Virus record (IMG/VR): IMGVR_UViG_3300032116_000919
Location: 1 to 30,596 of that record
Strand: one strand, 5' to 3'
Source: a virus
Length of the DNA: 30,596 bases
The notes under the pieces are model-generated. The model saw only the letters and a program-made list of their open reading frames with translations. It was not told where the DNA came from and did no database searches. The translations under genes were made by a program, and so were the position numbers. This document shows, piece after piece, positions 19,991 to 27,917 of this stretch (its first letter is position 1; the number at the start of each line of letters is the position of its first letter).

Positions 19991-21327
19991 GGGGGCACCA
20001 TCAGCGCCGCGTCGGGCGCCGGGTCGGGCAAGCCGAGCAGGTTGCGCACGTCCGCTGCCGCGAGCGGGAGCCCCGCGCGCACCATCAGGTCGATGCGCTT
20101 CGTGAGCGCGTCGAGATCCTGCGTCGGGTCGACCGCGAAGCTGATCGACGGCACAGGCGCCGTGGGCCCGTAGACCCGCGCGACGATCGGCCCGATGAGG
20201 TCGCGTCGCAGCGTCGCCGAGAGCGCCTCAGCGTCGCGCCTGGCGATCGTCAGCGTCGTGCGCTCGTGCACCTCGCCGAGCGCCCGGTTGCCGCCGGTCT
20301 CGCCGACCTCGCTGCCGAGCGTCGAGCCGACGATAGCCTTCGACATCTCGCTGTTGCAGATCGCCACGAGGCGCTCGTGGATCGCGTTGACGTTCGGCGC
20401 GTCCTTCACCTCGAGCTTCGTCGTGTCGGGGATCACCACCGACACCGTCGAGCTCATCGCTTCGAGCGCGTCCTGCAGCGCGGCCACGTCCTCGGGCGCC
20501 GCGCGCACCGGCGCGTCAGGGCCCGTGCCGCTGTTGTACTGCCCGACGCGCAGGCCGCGCCCCGCCCACTCCGCGAGCGCGAGGAAGTCGCGCATGCTGA
20601 ACCGCTTGAAGAGCGAGTACCAACACACCGCGCGGCCCAGGCCCTCGCGCGTCGGGTAGCCACCGCGAACGCGAGGCCGGTGCACGACGAACTTCCCCTC
20701 GGGGAACAGATCCAGCGGCACGCCTGGGAAGCGCGCGAAGGCCCGCTCGGCCTCCGTCTGCGGCACGCCGATGCCCGCGCCAGAGCCCGTCGCGTCCCAA
20801 AGGTGGAGCTTCCAATCGGTCGCGTACGCGAGGCGCCGCGGGTGCACGAACTCGAACGCGATCGGGCGGCGCCCGTCGCTCGACCAGATCACCTCGGCCA
20901 CGCTGCGGCCGTAGTAGATCCCTTGCTGCAGGTGGTGCAGGAGATCGCCGAACGACAGCGCCATGTCGCCGCGCGCCTCAACGTCGCGAAGCGTCTCCGT
21001 GACGAAGTCGGCCACGCGCGCGCCGAGTTCGCCCGAGTCCTTCGGAGGCCGGATCTCCCACGCGGCGCCCGCGACGAGCGCCTCGCGTCGGAAGAGCTCC
21101 GCGTGGAGGTGAGGGTCGGCCTCGCGCAGCTCGTCGAGCGCGTCGATCCACTGGTAGAGGTACCCGATGTCGGCCTGCCGCTGGATCGCGGTGAGCGCCT
21201 GCGGCGTGAGCGCGGAGCCAAGTCGGTACTGAAAGCGGTCGTTGTACGGCGGCGTCGCGAGGAACGGCACACGCGACGCGGTCGCGCGCGCTGCTGCGAT
21301 CTCAGCCTGTGTCGCGGTGCTCACCAT
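19987..21327 (-). CDS. Portal protein, Mu gp29-like (DUF935)
   Basis: A 446-residue protein from ATG at 21327, overlapping the large terminase by 7 nt. It has the DUF935 pattern: a lead part ALTAIQRQADIGYLYQWIDA, DPHLHAELFRREALVAGAAW, HHLQQGIYYGRSVAEVIW, VHPRRLAYATDWKLHL, then FSMRDFLALAEWAGRGLRVG and NSEMSKAIVGSTLGSEVG, and the closing LMVRAGLPLAAADVRNLLGL. The Mu portal is about 512 residues. It forms the dodecameric ring at one capsid vertex, through which DNA is packaged by the terminase encoded just upstream. No MuF (gp30) gene follows it, unlike in Mu. Confidence 0.92.
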   Translation of the reverse strand: MVSTATQAEIAAARATASRVPFLATPPYNDRFQYRLGSALTPQALTAIQRQADIGYLYQWIDALDELREADPHLHAELFRREALVAGAAWEIRPPKDSGELGARVADFVTETLRDVEARGDMALSFGDLLHHLQQGIYYGRSVAEVIWSSDGRRPIAFEFVHPRRLAYATDWKLHLWDATGSGAGIGVPQTEAERAFARFPGVPLDLFPEGKFVVHRPRVRGGYPTREGLGRAVCWYSLFKRFSMRDFLALAEWAGRGLRVGQYNSGTGPDAPVRAAPEDVAALQDALEAMSSTVSVVIPDTTKLEVKDAPNVNAIHERLVAICNSEMSKAIVGSTLGSEVGETGGNRALGEVHERTTLTIARRDAEALSATLRRDLIGPIVARVYGPTAPVPSISFAVDPTQDLDALTKRIDLMVRAGLPLAAADVRNLLGLPDPAPDAALMVPP

Positions 21328-22661
21328 ACGGCTCGGCCCGCCGACCGTACCAGCGTCGGCGGCGGCGACGCAAGGGGCGCGGCGCGATCGATCACGAGGT
21401 CGGTCAGCGCCCACACCAGCGCGTCGAGCCGGTCGGGCGACCGCGCGGCGCTCGCCGGATCCCACGACACGCACTGGTCTTCGAGCCGCGCCAGCAGCCC
21501 GACGTGCGAGACGCGGCCCTGCTCGTACAGCGCCGCCACCGGCTCGGCCCGCAGCGCCTTGCCCCGCGTCGCGCGCACCTGGGCGACGGGGACCGCACGG
21601 TCGACGGCGCGCAGCACCGACGCGACGAGGTCGCCGCCCTGATTGACCTCGGCGACGATCCTGTCCGCGCGGTGGCGCCGGTACGCCTCGACGGCGCGCC
21701 GCGCCCACTGCTCGGCCGGGTAGACGCCGCTCAGGTCTTCGAGCACGTACGCGCGCCCATCCAGCCCGAGCCCCGCCACGACGATGCCCGTCTCGTCGGA
21801 GCCTTCGTGCGCGGTCATCGCTGGATCGATCGCGACGACCACGCGGCGCATCGTCGGCGCCGTGTCGACGCGCGAGGCGTCGAACATCGCGAGGCGCCAG
21901 AGCGCCCCCGGCGCGTCGTCGAGGATCTCGCCGTCGAGCTCCTGCCGCCCGAGCCGGGTGTTGCCGTAGCGCGCGGTCAGCGCCTCGACCACGCCGGGCG
22001 CGAGGTTGCGGGCGTTGTCCAACGTGCGGCCGCGGGTGACGCGCGTCGTCGGAGACGCGGCGAGCGCACGCACCAGCTCCGTCGGGCGAGGCGTCGTGGT
22101 CACCACGACGCGCGGGTCGTCGCCCAGGCGCAGGCCCATCTGCAGCTGGTCCCACGCCTCGGGGTAGCGCCACGCCGCGAGCTCGTCGCACCACGCGGCG
22201 TCGTGCTGCGGGCCGCGGAGCTGGTCGGGCTCCTCGGCGCTATACGTCGTCGCAATCGAGCCGTTCGGCCACGTCAGGCGCCGGCGCGACGGCTCCCACG
22301 TCGGGCGCTCGTGCGGTGGCGAGATCGCGAGGATGCCCGACTCGCCCTCGACGATCACGTCGCGCACGTCGGCGGCGGTGCGCGCCACGAGCGCCACGCG
22401 GCGCGCGCGGCCCGACGCGACTAGAGCACGCACCCACTCGGCGCCCGTGCGGGTCTTCCCCCACCCGCGGCCCGCGAGGATGAGCCACGTTCGCCACGCG
22501 CCCGACGGCGGCTGCTGGTCGGGGCGAGCGAGGCGCCGCCAGTCGAACGGCGCGCGCACGCGCAGCTCCTCGAGCACCTCGGCGAGACGCGCCCGGTTAG
22601 TGGACGGTGTCGTCGAGGTCGGCGTCTGCGAGTCGACGCGCCTCGGCGCGGAGCTCGGCAT
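21321..22661 (-). CDS. Terminase large subunit
   Basis: A 446-residue protein. The N-terminal ATPase has a Walker A AGRGWGKT (residues 63-70), Walker B with catalytic carboxylate AAWCDE (155-160) and a coupling motif TTTPRP (188-193). The C-terminal RNase H-fold nuclease has acidic residues D279 (VVAIDPA), E338 (IVAEVN) and D413 (RLDALVWAL). These are all the core residues of phage packaging motors. ATG at 22661 has GGGAGAG 9 nt upstream but overlaps the small subunit by 65 nt; GTG at 22577 is an alternative that avoids the overlap and removes 28 poorly structured residues. It cuts concatemeric or replicating DNA and pumps it into the prohead through the portal. Confidence 0.93.
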   Translation of the reverse strand: MPSSAPRRVDSQTPTSTTPSTNRARLAEVLEELRVRAPFDWRRLARPDQQPPSGAWRTWLILAGRGWGKTRTGAEWVRALVASGRARRVALVARTAADVRDVIVEGESGILAISPPHERPTWEPSRRRLTWPNGSIATTYSAEEPDQLRGPQHDAAWCDELAAWRYPEAWDQLQMGLRLGDDPRVVVTTTPRPTELVRALAASPTTRVTRGRTLDNARNLAPGVVEALTARYGNTRLGRQELDGEILDDAPGALWRLAMFDASRVDTAPTMRRVVVAIDPAMTAHEGSDETGIVVAGLGLDGRAYVLEDLSGVYPAEQWARRAVEAYRRHRADRIVAEVNQGGDLVASVLRAVDRAVPVAQVRATRGKALRAEPVAALYEQGRVSHVGLLARLEDQCVSWDPASAARSPDRLDALVWALTDLVIDRAAPLASPPPTLVRSAGRAVW

Positions 22662-23067
22662 CGGTCATCTCTCCCACGTTGCGGACGTTCTCGACGTGCG
22701 TGCCCTTCGCGCGGTGCTCGGCGACCTCGGCCTCCCATCGCGCGCGCTTCGCGTCGTGCCGCGCCTTCGGGTCGCCGCGGCGGTGGTCGAGCTGCCACGC
22801 GGCGGCGCGCCAGTCCTGCGTCGCCGCCTTCGAGACGGTCGCCGCCAAGCCGACGTTGGCGGCGGCGTACGCCTCGCGCGCCCGCTCGACGAGGTCGCGC
22901 ACGTCGTCGTTCGTGCACGTCCCCTCGCGCACGCTCTTCGACCAGTCCATCCATGTGCGCCAGGGGATGCCCGCGGCCTCGGCGGCGTCGCGGTAGAGCG
23001 CGCCAGCGCGCAGGGCGTTCAGCAGCCGGTCGCGCTTCTCGCGCGTGATGGCGTGAGCGCGTGGCAT
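22597..23067 (-). CDS. Terminase small subunit
   Basis: A 156-residue protein from ATG at 23067 (TGATG); GTG at 23070 (GTGA) would add one residue. Residues 6-45 form a helix-turn-helix-like element: RDRLLNALRAGALYRDAAEA followed by GIPWRTWMDWSK, as in small terminases that recognise the packaging site. The rest is helical and charged, ending in an acidic tail (ADADLDDTVH). It lies directly before the large terminase and directly after the accessory block, so the packaging genes may share a transcript with it. Confidence 0.83.
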   Translation of the reverse strand: MPRAHAITREKRDRLLNALRAGALYRDAAEAAGIPWRTWMDWSKSVREGTCTNDDVRDLVERAREAYAAANVGLAATVSKAATQDWRAAAWQLDHRRGDPKARHDAKRARWEAEVAEHRAKGTHVENVRNVGEMTDAELRAEARRLADADLDDTVH

Positions 23068-23582
23068 CACTTCTTCACAGGTACCCAGCCCTTGCCGAAA
23101 GAGTCCTTGCCCGCGTGCTCAGGCGACGGGCGAACATCACTGAGACGTTCAACCTCTTCGTCCTCCATCCCGAGGCGCGCTTCGATCTCGGCCTGGGACA
23201 GCCCGGAGTCTTGCAGCGTGCGGACGATGTTCGACATCTTGAGGATGCCGTGCTGACCGCGAGCGCGGTTGAATCGCACCGTGGCGATCATCTGGTCGGA
23301 CTTCGACTTGCCGTTGCGGAGGCGCACGACCGGGACCATACCGCCGGTCATCGCGGCCACCTGAGCGTCACGAGAGGCTAGAGTCCAACGGTGGAAGCCG
23401 TCGACGATCTCGCCGTCCTCGCGAACGACGATCGCAGCACACCACCCGTCCTCCATGAGCGACCGCTTGAGCAGGTTGAACTCCGGGGAAAACACCGTGT
23501 TGGGGTTGTAGTTGTTGGCGCGCAGCGAAGACGCTGGTACCCACTCGATACGGTCGATGGGGTGCGACTTGTCGTCACTCAT
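23067..23582 (-). CDS. ParB/Srx-domain protein, IbrB/YbdM-like
   Basis: A 171-residue protein starting at ATG 23582, overlapping the PP-loop gene by 8 nt. The ParB/Srx core is clear: ASSLRANNYNPN (residues 17-28), GEIVDGFHRWTLA (57-69) and a second part with TVRFNRARGQHGILKMSNIV (101-120), followed by a short helical region with LSQAEIEARLGM. The pairing of an IbrA/YbdN-type PP-loop ATPase with this protein is known from E. coli YbdN-YbdM and the prophage IbrA-IbrB pair, where it affects expression of immunoglobulin-binding surface proteins. ParB/Srx folds can bind nucleotides or DNA. What this pair does in a phage is not known; regulation and DNA modification are both plausible. Confidence 0.85.
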   Translation of the reverse strand: MSDDKSHPIDRIEWVPASSLRANNYNPNTVFSPEFNLLKRSLMEDGWCAAIVVREDGEIVDGFHRWTLASRDAQVAAMTGGMVPVVRLRNGKSKSDQMIATVRFNRARGQHGILKMSNIVRTLQDSGLSQAEIEARLGMEDEEVERLSDVRPSPEHAGKDSFGKGWVPVKK

Positions 23583-24717
23583 AGCGGGTCGTGCCCTCTT
23601 CCTCGGTTTGCTTGAACGCCATGGTGCGACGTCCCTTGAAGTCGCCGCGCTCGGCGAGCATTAGCAGGAACGACCACGACAATTCTTCGGCGCCGGTGAC
23701 GTGCCCTTTGATCGGCGCTCCGCCGGTTCGCCCATCGTGCGCCGTGATCTCCTGTCGAACCCTCGCTGCGACGAGCGGGCGCTGATCTTCGGGCCACTTC
23801 ATGATCGCCGCGTGCACCGCCTGCTGCCACGTCATGCCGACGGGAGGCTCCTTGCGACGGTCGCCGAAACCGTAGAGCGGGGAGCGGCTGTACCGCCCCG
23901 CAGTCGCAGCGCCTGGGACGCGGGCGATCATTTTCTCCCACAGGTGCGGCCAGCACTCGGCGTACCGCCAGAGCCCTTGAAGCGGCTCCTCCCCATAAGG
24001 CGGACAGACGCGTTGCCCGTGCCGCGAGACACCAGCGAGGGTCATGACGTCATAGGCACGATTGTAGTCCCACCCGAAGAGACGCGGCGCCGTCCACACG
24101 TCCTCCGTCGTCCAGTCGTAGATCGGCTTCGCGATCATAACGTGAGGCGCGTAGGGGTCCTGCGAGAGCCAGTTGTCGTGCTCCTTCATCATGACGATGC
24201 GGAGGCGACGGAGGCTCTCCTGCGCACGAATGCCCGTGAGGACGACAGTCGAACACGCGCGGTCGCCGAGGACGTGACCGTTGAGTTGCGGAATCGGGAG
24301 GCGCTCGGACGGCGTGCGCGGAAGCGACGTGATCGCCTTCGCCGGGAGAGGGCGGCACCACTTCGCCTCGTCTTCCGGCGCCCACGGGTACCACCACGGC
24401 TCTTCGCGCGAGCACGCGTTGCGGTGCTTGACCGGGTAGCAGAACCACCGGAGCGAGATGCCGTCGCGCTCGCTGACGCGCTGAACGTACTCGACGGTCT
24501 CGGGGTGGATTGCCTCCTCGTCCCAATGGACGGCTTCGAGCGGGAGGCGACCCATCGAACGCGCGACCTCATAGGCGAGGTCGAGCACGACGGTAGAATC
24601 CTTCCCGCCGCTGAACCACACCACAACGCGGTCGAAGCGACGGAAACAGTCAGCGATGCGCTCGCGCGCGAGCTCGGCCACGTCTTCCGTTGTCCTCTGT
24701 CGTGTAAAGCCAGCCAT
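23575..24717 (-). CDS. PAPS-reductase-fold PP-loop ATPase, IbrA/YbdN-like
   Basis: A 380-residue protein from ATG at 24717, coupled by TGATG to the amidotransferase gene. The PP-loop is intact (VVWFSGGKDST, residues 32-42), followed by AVHWDEEAIHPETV, the signature TGIRAQESLRR (161-171) and KPIYDWTTEDVW (197-208), then a Cys-Tyr-Gly region and a C-terminal 130-residue extension with several Trp residues and a final basic stretch. PAPS-reductase-fold enzymes activate a substrate by adenylation from ATP or use PAPS. The IbrA/YbdN group is followed by a ParB/Srx partner, as here. The catalytic motif suggests an active enzyme; its substrate is unknown. Cysteine residues for disulfide or sulfur transfer were not identified with certainty. 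Confidence 0.88.
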   Translation of the reverse strand: MAGFTRQRTTEDVAELARERIADCFRRFDRVVVWFSGGKDSTVVLDLAYEVARSMGRLPLEAVHWDEEAIHPETVEYVQRVSERDGISLRWFCYPVKHRNACSREEPWWYPWAPEDEAKWCRPLPAKAITSLPRTPSERLPIPQLNGHVLGDRACSTVVLTGIRAQESLRRLRIVMMKEHDNWLSQDPYAPHVMIAKPIYDWTTEDVWTAPRLFGWDYNRAYDVMTLAGVSRHGQRVCPPYGEEPLQGLWRYAECWPHLWEKMIARVPGAATAGRYSRSPLYGFGDRRKEPPVGMTWQQAVHAAIMKWPEDQRPLVAARVRQEITAHDGRTGGAPIKGHVTGAEELSWSFLLMLAERGDFKGRRTMAFKQTEEEGTTRYE

Positions 24718-25361
24718 CAGGAACTGATCTCCTCTGACGATCCGTCGCGGTAGATGACGGCGCCCGTCTTCGGCCGCACCGCGACGGCTCCGGCGAACTC
24801 GCGCGAGCACACTGCCGACCACGTCGGCGTCACCTGCGCGAACAGCGGTTGTCCGAAGGCGTAGAAGGCGAGGGCGGAGCGGTGGAGCACCACGAGCGCG
24901 CCTGGCGTCGAGGGGCAAGCGGAGCGGACAGCGTTGACGATGGCGCGGGCGATGCCGTCGAGCGGGATGCGCTTCGCGATGAGGCGCCCCAGGACCTCGC
25001 TGTCATTGTCCGTCGAAGGGGCGAGGCCCTCCGCGGCGGCGAGGGCGGCGAAGCGAGGTACGCGGCCGTTGTGACAGACGACGATGTCGCCGCAGTCGAG
25101 CGGCTGCGCACTCGCCACGTCGGCGACGTTGACGCCCGTCGTCGCGAGACGCGAATGTCCCGCAACGGCCCACGCGGCGGCGCGGGGCAACTTCGACACG
25201 GAGGCGCTAGTGAGCGGCCCCGACGCGCGAGAGACGCGCAACGACTCCCCGTCGAACCACGCGACGCCGTGACTATGCGGTCCCCTCGTGGAGGCGAGTA
25301 GCGCAACGTCGCGGAGCGTCTCCGCGAAGTAGGCGCCAGAGACGGCGAAGAGCCCGCACAT
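24717..25361 (-). CDS. Class II glutamine amidotransferase
   Basis: A 214-residue protein; ATG at 25361 is fixed by TGATG coupling and by the nucleophile being the second residue: MCGLFAV, so Cys becomes N-terminal when Met is removed. Other family residues are present: STRGPHSHG (24-32), GHSRLATTG (68-76), CHNGR (96-100; Asn98, Gly99) and TDNDSEVL (117-124). These are all the residues needed to release ammonia from glutamine. There is no acceptor domain attached, so the ammonia must go to a separate partner; the PP-loop proteins encoded on each side are the natural candidates. This repeats the two halves of AsnB-type amidotransferases as separate genes. Confidence 0.9.
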   Translation of the reverse strand: MCGLFAVSGAYFAETLRDVALLASTRGPHSHGVAWFDGESLRVSRASGPLTSASVSKLPRAAAWAVAGHSRLATTGVNVADVASAQPLDCGDIVVCHNGRVPRFAALAAAEGLAPSTDNDSEVLGRLIAKRIPLDGIARAIVNAVRSACPSTPGALVVLHRSALAFYAFGQPLFAQVTPTWSAVCSREFAGAVAVRPKTGAVIYRDGSSEEISS

Positions 25362-26137
25362 CAACACGCACCGACTGAGCGAAGGAACTCGCGCGCCGAG
25401 GGAATGAGCGTCGCGGCCTCGTGAACCACGTCGGCGTCGATGGCGAACACCTCGCGCCATCCGCCGCGGACGCCGCCGCACCACTGACGCGCGGGCCACG
25501 GGCCGGTGCCCTGCCTGAACCCATGGGGCCACGCGTAGCACGGCGCGAACGGGAGGCCGAAGTAGTGCATCGCGGCGAGGAGCTCTTCGTGGCTCCAGTC
25601 GGCGAGCGGATGGAAGCGCGTCACGCCCTGCCCGTTGGTGTCGACCGCGGTACGAATGTTGTTGCCGTCGGCGCGGCGACGCCCGGTGACGAGAACGTCG
25701 AGGCGGTGCTTGTGAAAGTAGGTGGTCTGCCCGCGATGCTGCACCGCCGCGAACCACTTTGCAGCGGCGGCGGCCGTCGTGGGGAAGAGCCACTCCTCGT
25801 GAGCCGCAAGCCAGCGGAGATCCTGCCCCGTGTTGACGATCTCTAGGGAGCCGGGCATGTGGTCCGTCGCCCACCGCAGGAACTCAGGGAACTCCAGGTT
25901 GCAGATGACCATGCAGCACTGCGCGAAGCCCGCGCGACGCATGACCTCGCCGAGCAGTACGCTGTCCTTGCCGCCGGACCATCCGTAGGCGACGCGCTTC
26001 CCGGCGCACGTCTCGCGGACGGATCGCACAGTCGCGGCCATCCGCGCCTCGACGGCGCTGCGGGAGACGGTCGACTCGATCCCCGCGATGGCGACGTGCC
26101 AGTCCGTCTCGCTGGTCTGTTGCTTGCGCCCGATCAT
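25361..26137 (-). CDS. PAPS-reductase-fold PP-loop ATPase, second type
   Basis: A 258-residue protein starting at ATG 26137, overlapping the cupin gene by ATGA. The PP-loop is YGWSGGKDSVLL (residues 51-62), with a preceding AAxVRSVRETCAGKRVA helix and strand, then CCMVICNLEFPEFLRW, then VLVTGRRRADGNNIR (148-162) and FHPLADWSHEELLAAMHYFG (175-194), the usual motifs of the PAPS reductase family. It ends GAREFLRSVGAC-like with a Cys as last residue. It is shorter than the IbrA-like protein and lacks its long C-terminal extension. The order puts it immediately before the amidotransferase gene, suggesting a direct partnership. A TGRRRADGNN form instead of TGxRxxES points to a different substrate. 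Confidence 0.87.
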   Translation of the reverse strand: MIGRKQQTSETDWHVAIAGIESTVSRSAVEARMAATVRSVRETCAGKRVAYGWSGGKDSVLLGEVMRRAGFAQCCMVICNLEFPEFLRWATDHMPGSLEIVNTGQDLRWLAAHEEWLFPTTAAAAAKWFAAVQHRGQTTYFHKHRLDVLVTGRRRADGNNIRTAVDTNGQGVTRFHPLADWSHEELLAAMHYFGLPFAPCYAWPHGFRQGTGPWPARQWCGGVRGGWREVFAIDADVVHEAATLIPSAREFLRSVGAC

Positions 26138-26847
26138 CCGCCCGTGTTGAACGGGTTCGCCCCGATGTATGTACGGTTCCTCATCGGGTGCGCGGTGTCG
26201 GTCGGCCCCCAGTCGGAATCGGGATGGTAGGCGATCACGTCCATAGTCTCGCGGGTCTTCGTGCGATCGGTGCGGAAGCTGTGCATCTCCTGCGGCTCCA
26301 ACATGAACACCGCGGAGGGAGAAAGCTCCTCCTCCCACTGTTCCGCGCGACCGAGCTGAACGGGGCCGAACGCGTGACCGATGCCGCGCGCCACGATCCC
26401 GAGGCGAATCGTCGGGTGGGTGTGCTGCGTCTGGACGATGCCGGGCGGGAAGTGCAGGTGATTGAAGACGGGGTCGCCGAGACGCGGCGGGTATACGAGC
26501 ATTGAGTCGGAGCAGCCGTCAATGTACGAGAGGCGACCGCGCTGCTCGATGCGTCCGAAGCATTCCATGCCGCGAAAGCCATAGCGTGTGATTAGCACCA
26601 CGCGGGAGCCCGGACGCACGTCGGTTACCGTGAATCGGCCAGGGCAGCAGAAGAACGATCCGGTGGCCAGTTCGTGAGAGGCGCCCGCGGCGTGCACGGC
26701 AGCGCGTCCATCTAGCAAATAGCCGTAGGTAGTGCGGAGCGGGTCGGCGACCTCATGCCCCTTCGTGACGACCATCAGATCGGAGGGGTACGCGGTTTCC
26801 GTCGCGTCGATGCGCGCGCCGTGATCCGGATTGCGGATTAGCTTCAT
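26134..26847 (-). CDS. Cupin-domain protein
   Basis: A 237-residue protein from ATG at 26847 (ATGA with the ParB-like gene). Two cupin-like halves can be seen. The first (about 40-90) reads YGYLLDGRAAVHAAGASHEL then GSFFCCPGRFTVTDV. The second (about 125-205) contains VFNHLHFPPGIVQTQHTHPT with His142 and His144 as likely metal ligands, IVARGIGHAF, and PQEMHSFRTD with His189 as a further ligand. Cupins include dioxygenases, isomerases and epimerases as well as small-molecule sensors. In an operon with PP-loop ATPases and a glutamine amidotransferase it could supply an oxidation or isomerisation step, or bind a product. No signal peptide is visible. Confidence 0.8.
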   Translation of the reverse strand: MKLIRNPDHGARIDATETAYPSDLMVVTKGHEVADPLRTTYGYLLDGRAAVHAAGASHELATGSFFCCPGRFTVTDVRPGSRVVLITRYGFRGMECFGRIEQRGRLSYIDGCSDSMLVYPPRLGDPVFNHLHFPPGIVQTQHTHPTIRLGIVARGIGHAFGPVQLGRAEQWEEELSPSAVFMLEPQEMHSFRTDRTKTRETMDVIAYHPDSDWGPTDTAHPMRNRTYIGANPFNTGG

Positions 26848-27596
26848 TCTGAGACCGTCTTCATGTGAGCGCGCGCGAGGTGAACGATAGCAGCATCGCG
26901 AGACGGGAGGTCGAGAGATCGCTGCACCGACTTCAACGCGGCAATCACTACGTCGTGGTCTTCCAACGTCATAGTCAGCAGCAGCGTTTTGAAGGGAGCC
27001 TTGCTCTCGTCGCCCCCGGTGTCTTCGATGGACGGAGCGGCGCCGAACTCGTCGAGGAAGTCACTTTGCGTGCTGCGACTAGCTGGCGCCGCAGCAGCCA
27101 TTACGGCGTCTCCCGCTCGCTTGACCAGCGCATCCAGCGCCTCGCCGCCGAAGCCCATGTCGGCCATCACGGCGGCGTCGCGGCCGAACTGCGCGGCCAT
27201 CGCGACGATCGCCTCCGCTGAGTCGGTGCCCTGGAGACCGCGGGCGTTGTCCGCGAGGGTCATGGCGTCGGCCTCGGCGTCGGACACGTCGACGACGCGC
27301 ACGGGCACGCAGCCGGGCGGACCGCCGAACGAGTGCTCGGCGCCGCCGCGCATCTCGCCGTCGACCTCAAGGCCCTGCAGGATCAGCTTCGCGGCCTCGA
27401 GGCGCCCGTGCCCGCCGATGATGCGGCGCCCTCGGGCCTGAGCGACGATGGGCGCGCCCCAGGCGGTGCGGAGGATGGTGCGGGCGAGCTGCGCGACTTC
27501 GCTCCCGTGCAGGCGCGGGTTGCGTGGGTTGGGTCGCAGGTCGGCGACGGGGAGCCAGATGGCTGCGTCGCGCGCGTTTGGTGCGGGTTTCGCCAC
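26844..27596 (-). CDS. ParB-like N-terminal domain protein
   Basis: A 250-residue protein starting with GTG at 27596. The ParB N-terminal motifs are RPNPRNPRLHGSEV (residues 21-34), a strand-helix TAWGAPIVAQARG and the box IIGGHGRLEAAKL (59-71). A central hydrophobic/acidic part (ADAMTLADNARGLQGTD) and a C-terminal region (FKTLLLTMTLEDHDVVIAAL, then RSLDLPSRDAAIVHLARAHM) complete the protein. Phage proteins with this domain are usually non-partitioning; some act on DNA as nucleases or recruit modification enzymes. It is the first gene of the block and is probably transcribed from its own promoter; no ribosome-binding sequence is evident before the GTG. Confidence 0.82.
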   Translation of the reverse strand: MAKPAPNARDAAIWLPVADLRPNPRNPRLHGSEVAQLARTILRTAWGAPIVAQARGRRIIGGHGRLEAAKLILQGLEVDGEMRGGAEHSFGGPPGCVPVRVVDVSDAEADAMTLADNARGLQGTDSAEAIVAMAAQFGRDAAVMADMGFGGEALDALVKRAGDAVMAAAAPASRSTQSDFLDEFGAAPSIEDTGGDESKAPFKTLLLTMTLEDHDVVIAALKSVQRSLDLPSRDAAIVHLARAHMKTVSE

Positions 27597-27602
27597 GTCT
27601 GC

Positions 27603-27631
27603 AGTGTCGCGCGCCGCGATGGCGCCGTCAA
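27603..27631 (-). promoter_or_regulatory. Candidate promoter for the accessory operon (leaderless)
   Basis: On the minus strand TTGACG (27631-27626) is followed by 17 nt and GACACT (27608-27603). The -10 box matches the consensus at only 3 of 6 positions. The start codon GTG at 27596 lies 7 nt after it, so the transcript would begin at or next to the start codon, in line with the lack of a ribosome-binding site. Confidence 0.33.
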
Positions 27632-27640
27632 ATACGACGA

Positions 27641-27664
27641 CGCCCGCGGCAAGACCCGCGGGCG
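27641..27664 (-). terminator. GC-rich hairpin, possible terminator of the replication operon
   Basis: A perfect 9-bp stem (CGCCCGCGG with CCGCGGGCG) and a 6-nt loop. On the minus strand it is followed by a weak T-containing stretch (TCGTCGTATTTG). It lies between the primase stop and the ParB-like start, where an operon boundary is expected. A full T tract is missing, so an intrinsic terminator is only possible. Confidence 0.4.
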
Positions 27665-27738
27665 ACGGCGTGCTGGTCGGCGTGGGAGAGACGGACGACC
27701 GCCGCGAACCATGCCGCAGGGCGCGGCGGGGGTCAACT

Positions 27739-27915
27739 GCTACGCCGCTACATCGACGCTACGTGCTCTGCTACGTGTCGAAACGCTTCAAAACAAGGCT
27801 GCTACGCTGCTACACCACTACTCTTATAGAGAGAGAGAGATTATATTTTATTGGGGGCGCGCGCGAGGGCGCCCCCCTATTGGGAGCATGGGGGCGTAGC
27901 GGGTAGCGGTGTAGC
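27739..27915. repeat. GCTAC iteron-like repeats around an AT-rich stretch; candidate origin
   Basis: GCTAC occurs six times at 27739, 27747, 27758, 27770, 27801 and 27809, and as the inverted form GTAGC at 27896, 27903 and 27911, each a 5-nt unit. Steps between neighbours are mostly 7-12 nt. Between the two sets lies the only strongly AT-rich sequence of the window (27821-27852). Its position next to the primase-helicase gene fits a replication origin or an operator. Confidence 0.45.
27853..27876 (-). terminator. GC-rich hairpin downstream of primase gene
   Basis: GGGGGCGC (27853-27860) pairs with GCGCCCCC (27869-27876) across an 8-nt loop. It lies 42 nt beyond the primase stop. On the minus strand it is followed by A-rich rather than T-rich sequence, so it may be an origin structure rather than a terminator. 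Confidence 0.3.
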
Positions 27916-27917
27916 GG

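Follow-up and report, generated by a model that had tools for sequence, protein, structure and literature searches.

A block of six genes occupies positions 23067 to 27596 of the virus record IMGVR_UViG_3300032116_000919, a linear record of 30,596 bases that was analysed over its whole length and is referred to here as the window. The block consists of six open and intact open reading frames (ORFs), all on the minus strand, arranged in the order ParB1, cupin, PP2, glutamine amidotransferase (GAT), PP1 and ParB2, with consecutive overlaps of 4, 4, 1, 1 and 8 nt. The small-terminase ORF is itself overlapped by 4 nt by ParB2, and the operon runs on into the terminase genes; a VapE-type primase-helicase gene precedes the block, whilst the large terminase comes after it. 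Domain calls were made from Pfam, PHROG and NCBIfam profile searches, and the features, several of which belong to the 3'-phosphoadenosine 5'-phosphosulfate (PAPS) reductase type or to ParB-like families, are as follows:

26844 to 27596, minus strand: ParB1, 250 aa, ParB/Srx-type, GTG start; GGHGR box at 27402-27416
26134 to 26847, minus strand: cupin, 237 aa, bicupin; HxH at residues 142-144 (HTH, 26416-26424)
25361 to 26137, minus strand: PP2, 258 aa, PAPS-reductase-type PP-loop ATP pyrophosphatase; SGGKDS at residues 54-59 (25961-25978)
24717 to 25361, minus strand: GAT, 214 aa, stand-alone class-II glutamine amidotransferase; Cys2 at 25356-25358
23575 to 24717, minus strand: PP1, 380 aa, IbrA-like PP-loop protein; SGGKDS at residues 36-41 (24595-24612)
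23067 to 23582, minus strand: ParB2, 171 aa, IbrB-like; DGFHRW at 23382-23399
22597 to 23070, minus strand: small terminase (context, outside the cassette), phrog_4102 at 5.8e-18
21321 to 22661, minus strand: large terminase (context), Terminase_6N at 5e-27 and Terminase_6C at 5e-18

An earlier, sequence-only reading of this stretch had described six intact genes joined by overlaps of 1-8 nt and retaining their key motifs, and ORFs, motifs and family searches all agree with that description. The likeness to IbrA/IbrB, the extension of the operon to the terminase genes and a smaller recurring unit of four or five genes, all described below, go beyond it. The 321-nt gap between the primase-helicase gene and ParB1 (27597-27917), which carries a TC-dinucleotide run near 27826-27842, is a possible regulatory region; a promoter scan found no sigma-70-like site in the block region.

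PP2 was matched by phrog_424 (8.6e-20) and, under the Pfam cut-off, by PAPS_reduct (0.00098). Its AlphaFold2 (AF2) model, with a predicted local distance difference test (pLDDT) score of 96.9, had the CysH/PAPS reductases, TtuA, the ATP pyrophosphatase (ATPPase) subunit of GMP synthetase and TilS as fold neighbours. More than 100 PP2 homologues were found in gene cassettes related to the block; the PP-loop SxGKDS is retained in 113 of 116 sequences, no cysteine is universally conserved, and the commonest one is missing from the window protein. GAT scored above the cut-off for GATase_6 (3.6e-8), and an alignment of eight GATs revealed the features of a class-II (N-terminal nucleophile, Ntn) amidotransferase, namely Cys2, the oxyanion-hole residues N98-G99, the glutamine-binding R71 and D120. 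PP2 and GAT behave as a pair, since GAT immediately follows PP2 in eight independent contigs: the window, L048/L164 (one contig, in which GAT is inverted), L171, L173, L185, L221, L228 and L236. These include two Streptomyces contigs (L221 and L228) and a Gemmatimonadetes contig (L236), the latter of which also holds the cupin, together with a large terminase that shares 54% identity with that of the window. L173 and L185 additionally encode a sodium symporter of the SSF family, which rules out mutual exclusion of GAT and the symporter. L072 has the order of the window minus PP2-GAT, with the cupin directly adjoining PP1.

For PP1, matches were obtained to PAPS_reduct (1.8e-15), DUF3440 (6.5e-8) and phrog_2302 (1e-78); SxGKDS is retained in 94 of 103 sequences, and C93 is the sole cysteine conserved in more than 90% of them. 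ParB2 matched ParB_N (1.4e-6; 28.6 bits against a cut-off of 26.3) and phrog_2159 (4e-59), and its DG.HR and HNRARG boxes are near-invariant. It lies directly downstream of PP1 with the 8-nt overlap, which is the position of IbrB. By family (phrog_2302 and DUF3440; phrog_2159) and by gene order, PP1-ParB2 is an IbrA/IbrB-like pair of the kind encoded by prophages and phages, but the window pair is joined by PP2, ParB1, cupin and GAT (elsewhere by a symporter) and sits inside a terminase operon. PP1 homologues were present in 215 named phage records, several annotated as IbrA with IbrB adjoining, and the pair was found in phages of Streptococcus, Mycobacterium, Escherichia, Fusobacterium and others. 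In the phage regions inspected it mostly occurred without PP2, GAT or cupin, often in an early or replication region. The literature yielded IbrA/IbrB as an annotation only, with no account of their chemistry found, and the paper on Serratia phage eta reports no modified bases and leaves PP1-type genes unmentioned.

ParB1 had no Pfam match and was recognised only by PHROG ParB families, namely phrog_498 (the N-terminus of ParB-DNA methyltransferases; 4.5e-19), phrog_723 and phrog_620. Through phrog_498 it falls into the ParB family known from fusions with phage DNA methyltransferases, and its homologues adjoin PP2 or the cupin in cassettes. The cupin fell under the cut-off for Cupin_2 (2.3e-4); its AF2 model (pLDDT 89) has a bicupin fold with generic neighbours, and H142, H144, H189, Q139 and a YIDGC.D motif are invariant in 42 relatives. 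Its profile match to YlbA (1rc6), which we take to be AllE, the (S)-ureidoglycine aminohydrolase, reached only E=0.13, with 1sef and 1sfn among many bicupin fold matches (template modelling (TM) score 0.63). The nearest solved structures to the SSF symporter are the urea symporter DUR3 (6e-19) and a choline transporter. Despite the urea/ureide theme of a DUR3-like symporter and an AllE-like cupin, no substrate is claimed, because the symporter also scores with PanF/PutP models (under cut-off) and the fold matches of the cupin are generic. Bacteroidales cassettes (L243:6375-6977, L247 and L235:5189-5914) have an additional gene, which begins with a signal-peptide-like stretch and is placed between the symporter and PP2; the copies tested matched neither Pfam nor PHROG families, and the product might partner the symporter in the outer membrane.

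Scans of viral contigs with the single PP2 and GAT proteins returned no matches, and profile alignments were needed to retrieve relatives of the block. A gut-phage relative of PP2 (L003) revealed the order symporter-PP2-ParB1-PP1-ParB2, and a profile search of viral contigs then recovered 43 loci, most of them with this same order. Further profile searches of viral and genome contigs brought the total to approximately 250 loci, some contigs being counted twice. In the gene-order tally, SSF-PP2-ParB1-PP1-ParB2 accounted for about 114 loci, PP2-ParB1-PP1-ParB2 without SSF for 18, ParB1-cupin-PP1-ParB2 for 19 (plus variants with PP2) and the cupin only for 48, whilst the window variant is ParB1-cupin-[PP2-GAT]-PP1-ParB2. 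The PP2-ParB1-PP1-ParB2 order, mostly headed by the symporter, is shared by more than 100 phage or prophage loci, the majority from Clostridia, and the version with a cupin, ParB1-cupin-PP1-ParB2, by about 30 virus loci; further hosts are Negativicutes, Bacteroidota, Streptomyces, Actinomadura and a Gemmatimonadetes metagenome-assembled genome (MAG). Co-occurrence of the genes elsewhere, on which the sequence-only reading had staked its proposal, was therefore borne out by a conserved order in more than 100 loci. What recurs is the core of the six-gene set, as a cassette of four or five genes, and not exactly the six genes of the window.

Chance association of these genes is excluded by the conservation of their order in well over 100 loci from several phyla and by the correlation of their distances: gene-to-gene distances correlate at 0.76-0.91 across the 113 loci that have the complete set of five SSF-cassette genes and, by position, a terminase candidate. 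PP2 proteins 86-89% identical to one another precede terminase candidates without detectable mutual similarity, and the terminases that were checked fall into different families (gpA-type phrog_15, phrog_2 and phrog_38). That near-identical cassettes precede unrelated terminases indicates that the cassette moves as a unit; as the terminase candidates were picked by position, this is a strong indication of mobility and not a proof for each locus.

Several departures from these arrangements were also observed. In L251 (Actinomadura), a DegT/DnrJ aminotransferase gene lies between ParB1 and PP2, whilst in the Riemerella prophages L233 and L240 PP2 is found among capsid genes, apart from the ParB pair, and is split across two frames in L240. 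In large T4-like phage contigs (L074:5886-7624, L079, L084, L089, L112 and L117) the cupin adjoins a different, unnamed PP-loop protein, which has the motif SGGIDST, followed in some by a GDQLFG-like motif, and no Pfam match. PP1 was absent at the threshold used from 25 of 26 such contigs, and the pair is possibly another cupin and PP-loop unit. Just downstream of it in L074 (8310-9981) are genes that by eye are QueE-like and QueD-like.

The position upstream of the small terminase was then compared across phages. Two large terminases, one from a Clostridia cassette phage and the other from the window, served to collect relatives whose upstream content was examined, which gave 79 loci with at least 3.5 kb of upstream sequence: 14 with the cassette, 16 with a ParB gene but no cassette and 49 with neither. 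All 14 cassette loci came from the Clostridia terminase set; for the window terminase, the viral relatives sampled were all without the cassette, which is present in the genome contig L236. Five enzyme queries were used, the slot enzymes being checked by Pfam on representatives and carried over to other loci by tblastn. A C5-methylase, an N6/N4-methylase (fused to ParB), Mom or a TET-associated glycosyltransferase (TAGT) was present in 13 of the 16 loci with ParB alone, as compared with one of the 49 without ParB (Fisher p = 4.5e-10; p = 1.2e-7 with near-duplicates collapsed), and in none of the 14 cassette loci. Known phage ParB and modification genes thus share with the block both the slot upstream of the small terminase and the ParB family, but have a methylase, Mom or TAGT where the block has PP-loop enzymes. 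This exchange is evidence from position, and makes the strongest case for regarding the cassette as a DNA-modification system. Individual arrangements in the slot include a ParB gene beside a Mom protein (L283:5875-7118), a ParB gene beside TAGT (L392:5856-7464) and a ParB gene followed by an ABC-type ATPase and a formyltransferase (L270:4744-7152), the last of which is possibly a further modification set.

PP-loop enzymes that act on phage DNA have a precedent. CmoA, CmoX and CmoY make carboxymethyl-deoxycytidine (dC), and CmoY, an Asn-synthetase-like PP-loop ligase, attaches glycine to phage 5-carboxymethyl-dC (PMC12783734, 2025). ParB genes are often near such amide ligases, and a second ligase cluster bears a glutaminase domain (PMC12783734). 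Given these likenesses the block may, by analogy, work on a similar principle, but PP1 and PP2 are of the PAPS-reductase type and not the Asn-synthetase type, and the GAT of the window is a separate protein. It is not the Cmo pathway itself, because CmoA, the carboxy-S-adenosyl-methionine (Cx-SAM) synthase, was found in none of 49 records, some of which, the window among them, may be fragmentary, and a C5-methylase (CmoX-type) was missing from the window and from 46 of the 49, the other three having one. Together with the lack of any CysH or QueC signature, this upholds the earlier view that the block is not a recognised pathway. Gat-QueC systems likewise pair a class-II amidotransferase with a PP-loop protein. 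The block differs from these and from the Dpd 7-deazaguanine systems in having a stand-alone GAT and no QueC zinc motif, Dpd, QueD or QueE; DpdB is ParB-like (PMC12839542). Identity with QueC was rejected on PF06508 scores (13.5 bits for PP1 against a cut-off of 22, no match for PP2) and on the lack of C-terminal zinc cysteines. The phosphorothioation enzymes DndC, SspD and BrxP share the PAPS-reductase-type PP-loop fold and a ParB-superfamily partner (DndB), but the block is without their cysteine set, desulfurase and ABC ATPase partners. PP1 was rejected as a DndC, with 30.8 bits to TIGR03183 against a cut-off of 290.4 and no multi-cysteine Fe-S/persulfide set.

We favour, at a probability of roughly 0.56, the reading that the block is a variant of a mobile phage cassette which modifies phage DNA late in infection from within the packaging-gene operon, and which probably decorates viral DNA with an undescribed chemical group. 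PP1-ParB2 would form the constant core, and PP2 with its own ParB1 a second, related module. In GMP synthetase, Asn synthetase and TilS, adenylation by the PP-loop domain is followed by attack of a nitrogen nucleophile; the GMP synthetase ATPPase and TilS are among the fold neighbours of PP2, though distant from it in sequence. By comparison with such ligases, PP2, and likewise PP1, would use ATP to adenylate a carbonyl or carboxyl on a base, either in DNA or as a nucleotide, and a nitrogen nucleophile would then replace the adenylated group. In the window variant GAT may hydrolyse glutamine and hand the ammonia to PP2. The role of the ParB proteins would be to bind DNA or track along it, or, as NTP switches, to bring the enzymes to it; the cupin may act on an intermediate, and the sodium symporter of Clostridia and Bacteroidota phages would import a precursor. 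A tentative and rather unlikely refinement is a new class of DNA hypermodification, in which the tandem PAPS-reductase-type PP-loop enzymes, each with a ParB protein, substitute a native base carbonyl directly, without a handle installed by a methyltransferase, taking nitrogen from glutamine-derived ammonia or, in other versions, from a solute imported by the symporter that the phage encodes. To our knowledge, no earlier phage DNA modification is known to be supplied by a transporter of the phage's own, so that this one would be the first. The sequence-only reading had suggested an amidated, sulfurated or otherwise decorated base. The terminase-slot enzymes and the PP-loop ligase precedent (PMC12783734) lend independent support to a decorated base, for which an amidated product fits better and a sulfurated one worse, PP2 having no universal cysteine and PP1 one.

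Several observations weigh against DNA modification. A gene that would install a chemical handle was not found in the block, and 46 of 49 records lack a C5-methylase. Many loci are prophages, in which broad modification would affect host DNA also unless expressed late, and L221, L228 (Streptomyces) and L251 (Actinomadura) show no obvious phage genes nearby. IbrA/IbrB pairs carry the name of prophage expression co-activators, and DNA modification in these phages is so far a prediction from their genes. The slot argument is one of guilt by position, drawn from two terminase families and five enzyme queries with some near-duplicate loci. Finally, the symporter and the secreted-looking Bacteroidales gene fit small-molecule metabolism equally well.

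Such metabolism is the main rival. The block would then be a cassette for lysogenic conversion or host-takeover metabolism, in which a solute taken up by the symporter is turned by PP2/GAT, PP1 and the cupin into a product that helps the lysogen or blocks a defence; the ParB domains would be NTP-using enzymes, as in free serine kinase and sulfiredoxin, and not DNA binders. The presence of an SSF symporter nearest to DUR3 and choline transporter structures in most Clostridia cassettes accords with this, as do the signal-peptide-like gene between the symporter and PP2 in Bacteroidales, a bicupin fold with possible hydrolase relatives and the actinomycete copies without obvious phage genes. The symporter could, however, equally bring in a base precursor, and the slot exchange with DNA-modification genes, the kinship with methyltransferase-fused ParB proteins and the terminase operon all count against a metabolic role, which we regard as unlikely though still to be taken seriously.

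It is less probable again that PP1-ParB2 co-activates prophage gene expression in the manner of IbrA/IbrB, the remaining genes being accessory. Named phages do carry homologues annotated IbrA/IbrB, and the block is positioned ahead of late genes, but intact ATP-pyrophosphatase motifs in two PP-loop proteins, together with GAT, the cupin and the symporter, imply catalysis, lone pairs also occur in early or replication regions, and none of the papers found establishes how IbrAB works. Sulfur transfer to DNA or RNA by a DndC/SspD/BrxP-like or thiouridylase-like system appears very doubtful: the weak matches of PP1 to DndC and BrxP profiles and the presence of TtuA and CysH among the PP2 fold neighbours are set against the lack of a cysteine desulfurase, DndD or DndE in the block, the lack of conserved Fe-S/persulfide cysteines (only C93 in PP1, none universal in PP2) and a glutaminase subunit that points to ammonia.

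Auxiliary sulfur assimilation by a PAPS reductase (CysH), as phage annotation pipelines would have it from PHROG and Pfam names, and as surveys that label such genes host or sulfur metabolism imply (PMC8879888, PMC11318856), is scarcely credible, given that the catalytic E-C-G-[L/I/M]-H motif of CysH PAPS/APS (adenosine 5'-phosphosulfate) reductases is present in 0 of 103 PP1 and 0 of 116 PP2 sequences though SxGKDS is retained, and that ParB and terminase partners make no sense for sulfate reduction. For this family in phages, the metabolic-gene label 'PAPS reductase' is probably a misnomer. In the same surveys, prophage LM41phi14 carries phrog_424 and phrog_2302 two genes apart, which, judged from the survey annotation alone, looks like this cassette (PMC11318856, PMC8879888).

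Should the favoured reading be true, a gene set that is shared by phages as well as prophages from several phyla and is common among gut Clostridia would be an undescribed DNA-modification machine, one that could plausibly shield the phage from host nucleases. Prophages with the cassette are present in cultured gut commensals, for example Anaerotruncus colihominis DSM 17241 (L198), Agathobaculum desmolans ATCC 43058 (L249) and Acetatifactor muris DSM 23669 (L177), which makes the proposal directly testable. The favoured reading would further give the IbrA/IbrB pair a biochemical setting, help to explain the ParB proteins that accompany phage modification enzymes, and correct the counting of 'PAPS reductase' genes as viral sulfur metabolism.

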